Assembly: GCA_019113395.1 (NCBI GenBank)
Contig: DXHL01000006.1
Coordinates: 1-64,000 of the forward strand
Source: Candidatus Rikenella faecigallinarum
GTDB taxonomy: Bacteria > Bacteroidota > Bacteroidia > Bacteroidales > Rikenellaceae
Direction of reading: 5' to 3'
DNA: 64,000 bases
Shown: one piece after another, positions 43,212-62,369 of the stretch
Numbering within the stretch: position 1 is the first letter of the stretch
How the letters are laid out: every line of letters begins with the position of its first letter
Notes under the pieces: generated by a model
Told to the model about the DNA's origin: nothing
Seen by the model: only the letters and a program-made list of their open reading frames with translations
Databases searched by the model: none
Translations under genes and position numbers: made by a program

Positions 43212-44027
43212 TTAATACTGCTCGCTCTCGTTCGGGAAATCACCGCTCTTCACATCCTCCCGATACTGCTCTACGGCCGCCGTAATCTGCTCGTGCAGAT
43301 TGAGATAACGCCGCAGGAAACGGGGCGAGAAGCCGTTGTTAATGCCCAACATGTCATACGACACAAGCACCTGTCCATCGACCTGATTCCCGGCCCCAAT
43401 CCCGATAATCGGAATCTTCACGGCCGAGGCCACCCGCCCGGCCAGCGCCGCCGGTATCTTTTCGAGGACAATGCCGAAACAGCCCGTTTCGGCCAACAAC
43501 AGCGCATCGTTATAGAGTTTTTCTGCTTCGGCCTCCTCCTTCGCCCGGACGGCATAGGTTCCGTATTTGTTAATTGACTGCGGCGTGAGCCCCAAGTGTC
43601 CCATCACGGGAATCCCCGCACACAGAATGCGCTGCACAGATTCAATAACTTCGGCTCCTCCCTCCAGTTTCACCGCATCGGCCTCCGTCTCCTTCATAAT
43701 CCGAATGGCTGAATTCAACGCCTCCTTCGAATTGCCCTGGTAACTCCCAAAAGGCAAATCCACCACCACCAAAGCCCGTTCCACTGCCCGAGCCACCGCT
43801 TTCCCGTGGTAAATCATGTCATTGAGGGTCATCGGCACCGTCGTCTTGTACCCCGCAATCACATTGGCCGCCGAATCCCCCACCAAAATCACGTCAATCC
43901 CGGCAGCATCCATAATTCCCGCCATCGTATAGTCATAGGCGGTCAGCATCGATATTTTTTCGCCCCGCGCCTTCATTTCGCTCAGACGAAACGTGGTCAC
44001 GGCTCTTGTTTTTCCTTCTGTCGACAT
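43212..44027 (-). CDS. panB: 3-methyl-2-oxobutanoate hydroxymethyltransferase
   Basis: First step of pantothenate synthesis: transfers a hydroxymethyl group from methylenetetrahydrofolate to 2-oxoisovalerate, giving ketopantoate. The 271-residue product has the conserved [31 protein letters not shown] in outline (metal and substrate site), [10 protein letters not shown] and [10 protein letters not shown] with the catalytic Glu. Start at 44027 fits the family; the longer frame runs into the non-coding island. It draws on the same 2-oxoisovalerate as leuA. No panC or panD is nearby. Confidence 0.96.
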
Positions 44028-44053
44028 AATCAATCCAACTTCGTTCGTGGGGT

Positions 44054-44061
44054 CAAAAGTA
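44054..44061 (-). promoter_or_regulatory. -7 box of panB
   Basis: TACTTTTG on the minus strand, 26 bases before the panB ATG. Confidence 0.5.
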
Positions 44062-44138
44062 TAAAACTTTCCCATCAATCCCTCGCCCAAGGCGATAAGA
44101 TTTCGAGCGCCAAACAACACAGGCAACCAACGGGATAT

Positions 44139-44203
44139 GGGGTAGAGGCAGCTCGGCTGGAATGCCCAGCGGCACCTGTGGGCTGACGGTTTCTCACGAA
44201 ACC
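44139..44203. repeat. Intergenic repeat, copy A
   Basis: Its first 37 bases (44139/44140 to about 44176) match copy B at 34 of 37 positions; its last 36 (44168-44203) match copy C at 34 of 36. It ends in the small hairpin GGTTTC-TCAC-GAAACC. Confidence 0.8.
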
Positions 44204-44500
44204 ACATCGGCTCGACTCCTCATCTCAGCCCTTCTCGACCTTGCGCCCACCCCCCCGAGCGGCAGAGCCGCTGGGCGCAACGGTCGGCGGTTTTTACAAA
44301 ACCGCGCGGCGCGGAAACTCAGTGGCCCGGGTTGCCGAGGCAACCCGTCAGCCCGGGGGTGGCTGCGGGCACTCCGAATAAGAGAATGCTCGGTCTCAAA
44401 TGCGGAGGGCTGACGACGGCCTGCGCAATCAGAGCGTTTCGAATCCGGGCGGCTGCGCTCCGAAAACAGAGCACCGTCAGGTCGAAGCCGGCGGAGTTTA

Positions 44501-44537
44501 GGGTAGAGGCGGCTCGGTTGGAGTGCCCAGCGGCACC
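44501..44537. repeat. Intergenic repeat, copy B
   Basis: 37 bases, same orientation as copy A, three transitions as the only differences. Confidence 0.8.
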
Positions 44538-44599
44538 AGGCCTCCGCTGGGGATGGTTTCGGCCTGACACGAATGGCAAGCCATTCGCATTTTCTCAGA

Positions 44600-44660
44600 G
44601 ACGAGTCGGCAGGAGTGCCAGCGGCACCTGCGGGCTGACGGTTTCTCATGAAACCGTTGC
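44600..44660. repeat. Intergenic repeat, copy C
   Basis: The core 44620-44655 matches the second half of copy A at 34 of 36 positions and ends in the same hairpin (GGTTTC-TCAT-GAAACC), here with one more G-C pair. Confidence 0.8.
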
Positions 44661-44863
44661 GGCTCGGAGAATCATTCCCGCCTCTTTCGGCAGCACCGCC
44701 CCCGCTGGCTTCGGCCCTTCGGAATGTGTTCCGTACATACACTCAACTCAGCATCCATTCCCAAAAATCCAAGCAACCTCGCTGACGGCGTTCTTCAAAA
44801 GCCTGCCTACATTAAAAATTCAGACAAGTATCACCGGACAGAACCTATCGAAAGACTCTCCCA

Positions 44864-44933: not shown

Positions 44934-45878
44934 CTACAACGCCCCGATTTCTTTCAGGATGGCATTGGTTTTACGCACAGCTTCGGCACTCTTTTCAAAA
45001 GCCTCTTTTTCTTCGGCCGTCAGAGCCACTTCGACAACCTTTTCAGCACCGTTTTTCCCGATAACGGTCGGCACACCGATACAGATGTCTTTTTGGCCGT
45101 ATTCGCCTTCGAGGTATACGCACGAAGGAACGATTTTCTTTTGGTCGCGCACAATCGATTCGACCACCATGGCAGCCGCAGCGCCCGGAGCATACCAGGC
45201 CGAGGTACCGAGCAGTTTGGTCAGCGTGGCACCGCCCACCATCGTGTCAGCCACGACTTTGTCGAGCAGAGCTTTGTCTTTGCAGAGGTCGGTAACGGGC
45301 ACACCCTTCACCGAGGCTTTGCTCACGAGCGGAATCATCGTCGTATCGCCGTGACCGCCGATAACCATTCCGTCCACGTCGTTCGAGTTCACGCCGAGTG
45401 CTTTCGAGAGGTAGCATTTGAAACGAGCCGAGTCGAGCGCACCACCCATCCCGAACACCTGATTTTTGGGAAGCCCCGTAGCTTTGAGAGCCAGGTAGGT
45501 CATCGGGTCCATCGGGTTCGACACAATCAGGATAATGGCTTTGGGCGAATATTTGAGGATATTTTCAGCCACCCCTTTCACGATACCGGCATTCACGCCA
45601 ATCAGTTCTTCGCGGGTCATACCGGGTTTGCGGGGCATCCCCGAGGTAATCACCACCACATCCGAGTTGGCAGTAGCGGCATAGTCATTGGTTACCCCTA
45701 CCATGTTGGTATCGAAATCCATCAGGGTAGCGGTTTGGAAAATGTCGAGGATTTTCCCTTCCGAGAAACCTTCCTTGATATCGAGCAGCACCAGTTCGCT
45801 GCACACTTCGCGCGTGGCCAGTACGTTTGCACACGTTGCACCGACGTTACCGGCGCCCACTACGGTTACTTTTGCCAT
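44934..45878 (-). CDS. mdh: Malate dehydrogenase
   Basis: NAD-dependent malate/oxaloacetate interconversion, 314 residues, of the lactate dehydrogenase-like type. Rossmann motif GAGNVGATCANVLA at the N-terminus, the substrate arginines in SGMPRKPGMTREEL and LPKNQVFGMGGALDSARF, and the catalytic His in IGGHGDTTMIP. In an anaerobic Bacteroidota it would run in the reductive direction towards fumarate and succinate, in line with MeaB in the same genome. Its own promoter and terminator make it a single-gene unit. Confidence 0.95.
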   Translation of the reverse strand: MAKVTVVGAGNVGATCANVLATREVCSELVLLDIKEGFSEGKILDIFQTATLMDFDTNMVGVTNDYAATANSDVVVITSGMPRKPGMTREELIGVNAGIVKGVAENILKYSPKAIILIVSNPMDPMTYLALKATGLPKNQVFGMGGALDSARFKCYLSKALGVNSNDVDGMVIGGHGDTTMIPLVSKASVKGVPVTDLCKDKALLDKVVADTMVGGATLTKLLGTSAWYAPGAAAAMVVESIVRDQKKIVPSCVYLEGEYGQKDICIGVPTVIGKNGAEKVVEVALTAEEKEAFEKSAEAVRKTNAILKEIGAL

Positions 45879-61917: not shown

Positions 61918-62369
61918 GTGAGTAAGGAAATAGTTTTAGGATTGTGACCTGCGGAGGCGGTATTTTTAAGACCGGGAAGGCGTTTTGGCGCACCCAATGC
62001 AGATCCGGTTGCGCGACTCTGTTGAGCCCCCGGCAGAGCCAGCCGCCGGACACAGCAGGTTCTTGTGAAACCGCCGAGATACGTACCGTCTCGTGTGCCG
62101 AACAGCACCCGCAGCCAGCGGAGGGAAGAAAGGACACGCCGGAGCGGGTCTCTTTCAGCCCTCCGCCCGGGGTGGCTGCGGGCTGAGCGACTTTTGACAA
62201 AGTCGCATTTGCTTTAACAGACACAGGTCGGCTCTATACTTCGTCGGCTGCGCCCCGAAAATCTAAAAACACCTCCCCCTCAGTTGCAGGGCAATCCGAA
62301 TGTTTCTCGGCACAATTAACTGGCATACGCCGCCTCTGCAGATTGCGCTCCATGTAACAACCTTCCCAC

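Follow-up and report, generated by a model that had tools for sequence, protein, structure and literature searches.

What are the diverged direct repeats that lie between panB and mdh, and what place do their hairpins have in this genome? The original prediction saw them as a family of dispersed intergenic repeats, perhaps REP- or MITE-like, that generates spurious hypothetical genes. We examined the repeats within the window (the whole 64,000-nucleotide stretch of DNA analysed), in the remainder of the genome and in relatives.

The hairpin island between panB and mdh

The gap is bordered by panB (43212–44027) and mdh (44934–45878), both on the minus strand according to the list of open reading frames. 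The start of panB at 44027 is common to relatives, and the automatically called panB frame (43212–44207) reaches the first repeat, copy A, only via an unlikely 5′ extension. The repeats themselves are real. Copies A and B (44140–44176 and 44501–44537) are identical at 34 of 37 bases, copies A and C (44168–44203 and 44620–44655) at 34 of 36, and all three differences in the former pair and both in the latter are transitions. Such transition-only differences suit stems that keep their pairing through G-C, G-T and A-T pairs. Within the gap, the best self-match over 36 bases reaches 34 identities, and the maximum among 200 dinucleotide shuffles was 25.

The whole island occupies about 44123–44717 on the plus strand, exceeding the 44139–44660 first proposed, and carries neither of the two elements described below, the cassette and its tail. 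It was delimited by BLAST against its own genome, by its absence from the corresponding gap in two genus relatives (G001 and G004), and by matches to a profile of the repeated module at 44123–44178, 44481–44592 and 44597–44639. Copy A (44139–44203, plus strand) is a partial module, recognized from the sequence and self-comparison, that ends in the hairpin GGTTTC-TCAC-GAAACC (44188–44203). It is followed on the same strand by two adjacent hairpins (44235–44305), which match the own genome and relatives and are the commonest island piece genus-wide, and by a hairpin of the GGGTTGCC-GA-GGCAACCC type (44328–44348), assigned from sequence and fold. One full module, which includes copy B, lies at 44481–44592 (plus strand; profile match E 6e-29, with pair counts on 23 copies). 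It has a nested stem CAGGTCGAAGCC...GGTTTCGGCCTG and an inner stem GTGCC-GGCAC, and then the hairpin CGAATGG-CAAG-CCATTCG. Copy C (44597–44657, plus strand), also a partial module, was assigned from sequence, profile and fold, and ends in the hairpin ACGGTTTC-TCAT-GAAACCGT (44638–44657). The hairpins originally predicted at the ends of A and C and near 44287–44305 are all present in the sequence.

Five of the six gap stretches tested as single-stranded DNA fold better than the shuffle mean. The z scores are −5.4 for 44235–44310, −3.1 for 44600–44665, about −2.6 for both 44320–44380 and 44475–44570, and −1.8 for 44556–44600. The exception is the copy A region, 44145–44200, at +0.2.

The family has another, weaker island on the plus strand of the window, upstream of rplU and between rplU and a metalloprotease-like gene (61950–62235, ends placed by eye; profile match 62156–62212, E 8e-5). 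A tRNA scan of the 64-kb window found none. At the panB–mdh position, G001 and G004 have the gap with no island, G003 and G005 have a different gene with no island seen, and in G006 an island accompanies two other genes. The window island belongs to a dispersed hairpin family, as a member that lacks a cassette; most likely it plays no coding role and is either a relic or an unused site.

The module family across the genus

Searching the own genome with the 601-base gap sequence gave at least 171 BLAST pieces at E ≤ 10 among the best 40 of 93 candidates. These form about 40 or more separate islands on many contigs, several of them at contig ends. Among the islands located, 42 have a full cassette and 16, including the window island, do not. 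In a search of 61 genomes at E ≤ 0.001, with up to nine candidates scored in each, the family was matched in the own genome and in six of seven genus relatives and in none of the 53 genomes outside the genus, among the matches listed. The relative without modules, likewise among the matches listed, is G004, which is also without a cassette match. The family is genus-restricted, dispersed and intergenic, and consists of stem-loop DNA modules that occur in both orientations, even within one island. The repeats are thus neither confined to the panB–mdh gap nor conserved there as part of one gene, and the proposed dispersed family that gives rise to spurious reading frames is borne out by the copy number and by the island-free gap in G001 and G004.

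The pairing of the module was assessed on 23 aligned copies, which were picked from 38 for being free of large insertions and losses. In the nested arrangement 89.6% of cells are paired and 20 cells are altered on both sides. The covariation score of the nested stem, 0.179 vs 0.131, is reached by none of 500 shuffles and exceeds that of all slid versions. The number of pairs with two-sided change is not above shuffles (5 vs 4.1; 176 of 500). The fold given by RNAalifold differs in part from the tested nested stem, and the module can pair in more than one way.

REP and BIME elements are short, clustered, intergenic imperfect palindromes with a GTAG-like motif, associated with RAYT (Y1) transposases. 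The modules share several of these traits, being short, dispersed, multi-copy, intergenic, clustered and imperfectly palindromic, with a GGTAG-type motif in 19 of the 23 aligned copies. They differ in lacking the enzyme: the REP-type transposase suggested by the original prediction did not turn up, since a Y1 (PF01797) search was negative in all eight genus genomes, whereas the identical search was positive in seven of eight genomes from the order's other families. They also differ in being tied one-sidedly to a coding element.

Cassettes, tail and expression site

The original prediction missed a silent adhesin cassette, which is present in most islands and fixed to one side of them. Most islands of the own genome hold a repeated coding segment for a start-less domain, and a composite island reads, from 5′ to 3′, as a start-less but intact cassette of about 206 codons, a conserved tail of 158 bp and an array of hairpin modules. 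A tblastn search with the cassette domain gave 53 matches in the own genome; the counts given here refer to 42 full copies, a 43rd (C25:53344) and pieces at contig ends being excluded. None of the 42 has its frame interrupted before the common stop; all have the first ~40 bases in common, and each is followed by the tail, which was found in none of 20 other genomes. The mean pairwise identity is 0.541 in the coding part (conserved ends excluded) vs 0.904 in the tail, which is the opposite of what is expected for decaying copies. One decayed cassette copy does occur (L067, 2437–2785).

A module profile match stands within 1 kb downstream of 38 of the 42 cassettes and upstream of none; of the four exceptions, two lie at contig ends. 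Of the module matches near cassettes, 59 are on the cassette strand and 38 on the opposite strand. Many cassette loci had been collected through a module match, and loci L099–L118 by protein match alone. In the latter set, where contig ends cut off two, BLAST places a module downstream of 18 of the 19 testable cassettes and misses one, L108; in the stricter profile search L100 becomes an additional miss. Since most islands carry the cassette on one fixed side, the module family appears tied to a system of surface-protein diversification. With neighbouring genes taken as the longest open reading frames in 42 islands of both kinds, those around cassette islands are tandem in 18 cases, convergent in nine, divergent in one and unclear in one, and those around module-only islands are tandem in seven, divergent in four and convergent in two. 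The cassette island beside dnaN (L057) measures about 1.4 kb; at the same place G001 has an empty gap of 171 bp, and the gaps of G006 and G004 measure 590 and 1248 bp.

Some further properties of the cassettes were noted. Two silent sites have 78 identical variable bases running to contig ends. At G000 contig starts, C25 and C30 have identical cassette beginnings and C2 and C17 identical tails, as if one cassette were present at two sites. The tail (e.g., L049 1314–1469) is G-rich. A motif of four G runs with loops of up to 12 bases occurs in 41 of 42 copies (11.1 in shuffled sequences), and with loops of up to 7 bases in 11 of 42 (4.0 on average after shuffling). The shuffling was mononucleotide, for which reason this G-quadruplex motif was set aside as evidence. 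The literature on Borrelia vls discusses G4 DNA, of which the G-rich tail is reminiscent. A likeness of the cassettes to rhamnogalacturonase, suggested by a PDB profile search, was not believed, as the matches were weak (best E 0.011).

The own genome has a single long-frame match to the cassettes, a gene that lies at the end of contig C6 and begins like a lipoprotein. P_gingi_FimA and DUF4906 are matched by this gene, and Mfa_like families by the adjoining one. The cassettes correspond to the C-terminal domain of this FimA-like lipoprotein. This domain matches Fib_succ_major weakly and below the curated cut-off in the cassettes (E 0.002 and 0.006), and likewise below it in two full-length relatives (E 2.4e-6 and 9e-6). 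One full gene, cut here by the contig end, thus stands opposite many start-less copies, as in silent-cassette systems. The variable part of the C6 gene is a mosaic on the ~200 bp before the contig end: 120 bp are 95% like cassette L008, and the following 113 of 113 bp are identical to cassette L107, where other cassettes are ~80% alike.

The start of contig C33 probably represents the 3′ flank of the same expression site. It begins with the tail, followed by the hairpin GGCGGCC-GTAA-GGCCGCC, close relatives of which stand 139–158 bases past the stop of the homologous genes in G001, G005 and G007, and the next genes on C33 match those downstream of the adhesin in G001. From this arrangement, the tail would be the expressed gene's 3′ untranslated region. 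In G001 the same interval holds a reverse transcriptase, for which no counterpart was found in the own genome.

Retroelements in relatives, proposed gene conversion and alternative readings

A reverse transcriptase with the motif IGNLTSQ, typical of the enzymes of diversity-generating retroelements (DGRs), is present in four relatives within the genus, G007 having been left out of this search. In three of the four, the adhesin gene or short copies of it are a few kb away. The own genome gave no PF00078 match and no match at E ≤ 1 with the G001 protein, and none was found in G003, a genome only 70% complete. G001 combines the reverse transcriptase with template and variable repeats whose differences are adenine-specific: 19 of 24 differing sites are template adenines, and most of the others are at the alignment ends. 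For G006, the differences within the matched part fall on template adenines, the figure for the full alignment being 6 of 11. No template repeat was identified for G005, whose nearest copy has 15 of 30 differences at adenines. The most variable positions of the own cassettes fall where the G001 template has AA codons (mean entropy 3.17 vs 1.71, p 2e-7) and, likewise, where the G006 template has them (p 1e-4). This coincidence may reflect shared descent or one binding face.

Start-less cassettes of ~145 codons occur in G002, G003, G005 and G006, and those of G002 stop 5 bases short of a hairpin of the window type. Replacement of the domain is visible between the sister species G005 and G003 (loci L181 and L182), whose four tandem adhesin genes are alike outside the replaced ends. 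In two of the four, the C-terminal ~700 bp are at 31–59% identity (70% in one transition window) between flanks at 81–99%; the remaining two are alike throughout.

We propose that the islands are a dispersed archive of silent cassettes that is used by gene conversion and bordered by hairpin arrays, and we regard this reading as probable. In this view a single FimA-like surface lipoprotein, the probable tip of a type V pilus, is expressed, and the cassettes act as silent donors for its C-terminal lectin-like domain. Homologous gene conversion would carry copies of segments into the expression site, and the conserved cassette start and the tail could serve as common flanks. The hairpin arrays might help as cruciform or single-strand structures, providing break or landing sites. 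From the sequences we infer that conversion is still ongoing and that the arrays assist it. Site-specific recombination at the cassette ends was ranked below homologous conversion because the mosaic junction falls inside the variable part. The data come from one assembly of one strain, with no switching observed, and L107 might instead be a copy derived from the expression site. The tie between module and cassette is also less clear in relatives, where 17 of 48 loci have a module profile match, eight of these 17 having been collected via a module match, and the own genome has its 16 islands without a full cassette.

Pathogens such as Borrelia, Neisseria and mycoplasmas provide most of the known archives of silent cassettes. 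The Borrelia vls locus is such a gene conversion system, as are Neisseria pilE/pilS and Mycoplasma genitalium MgPar. Here, as there, a single expression site with a mosaic sequence faces many donors that are intact, start-less and conserved at their ends, and Neisseria also has a repeat on the 3′ side of its silent donors. Unlike in those systems, single donors are here scattered over the chromosome, each with a hairpin array after it, and the setting is a member of the Bacteroidales with a pilus-tip lectin-like domain. Searches of open-access literature, judged on titles and abstract openings, showed no report of a silent-cassette system in Bacteroidales or Rikenella.

Could the modules instead be ordinary REP/BIME- or MITE-like selfish repeats, the window island being one of them, that merely use the same harmless intergenic sites as the cassettes? 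This is possible, and we hold the archive to be the better supported reading. The genus-wide distribution, intergenic position, both orientations and GGTAG-type motif would all suit selfish repeats, as would the module-only islands and the position of most modules seen in G001 away from cassettes. Mere site sharing, however, fails to explain an association that is one-sided, and the absence of a Y1 match in the genus also argues against it. That the modules encode a structured non-coding RNA is very improbable. The paired stems with compensatory changes and the stable folds are compatible with an RNA, but Rfam gave no relevant match at relaxed or gathering thresholds (a lone tRNA in L099 apart), and opposite orientations inside one island suit a DNA structure better. 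It is quite unlikely, too, that the cassettes are a graveyard of dead adhesin-end duplicates that never were donors. Their start-less state, their unrelated locations and the decayed copy would fit, yet all full copies remain open to the same stop despite the low coding identity, the non-coding tail is better conserved than the coding part, and an identical block is found in donor and expression site.

Another possibility, which we consider unlikely, is that DGRs seeded the islands. Hairpins recognized by structure would have been homing sites for adhesin-end copies, which became silent donors for gene conversion once the reverse transcriptase was lost, and the panB–mdh island would be such a site without a cassette. 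In its favor are the DGR-type enzymes near adhesin genes or short copies in relatives, the adenine-directed differences in G001, the coincidence of variable positions with its template and the hairpin-proximal ends of the G002 cassettes. PMC3240598 describes target hairpins with stems of 7–10 bp and 4-base loops at a distance of 4–34 bp, and homing that depends on the structure and not on the stem sequence; in the modules, too, hairpins stand close behind a variable gene end and pairing is kept while the stem sequence is free. Conversely, the TCAY loops in the window are unlike the GRNA loop of phage DGRs, each island has many hairpins, the modules occur in both orientations, the 5′ border of the cassettes is fixed, and no reverse transcriptase was found here. 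Moreover, no adenine bias is shown between the own cassettes (the six sites differing between C6 and L008 lack such a pattern), and the coincidence of positions may reflect merely one binding face. A related comparison concerns the DGRs that diversify tip pilins of type V pili in Bacteroides, as described in the review PMC12632263. The kind of target protein and the end of the domain are the same, and genus relatives own reverse transcriptase and template repeats, whereas in the own genome the variation covers ~206 codons with insertions and deletions.

If the archive reading is true, a gut lineage varies the same pilus-tip domain by a retroelement in some relatives and by more than 40 scattered donors in one, so that one can ask how one mechanism of diversification replaces another. 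The archive would look like a hidden store for changing the bacterial surface, and its islands would account for one kind of spurious hypothetical gene and of contig break in genomes like this.

The cassette domain itself is widespread in the family, with matches in 91 of 120 genomes; it is the archive with its hairpin borders that is unusual, not the domain. Several genomes of the family from other genera (G017, G026, G036, G063, G104 and others) have at least 20 matches to the domain each. Within the genus, G006 holds tandem short adhesin-end copies with a 251-base period (L187, 2172–3499); they lie a few kb from a reverse transcriptase of the DGR type and may be several template repeats or a local array of donors.
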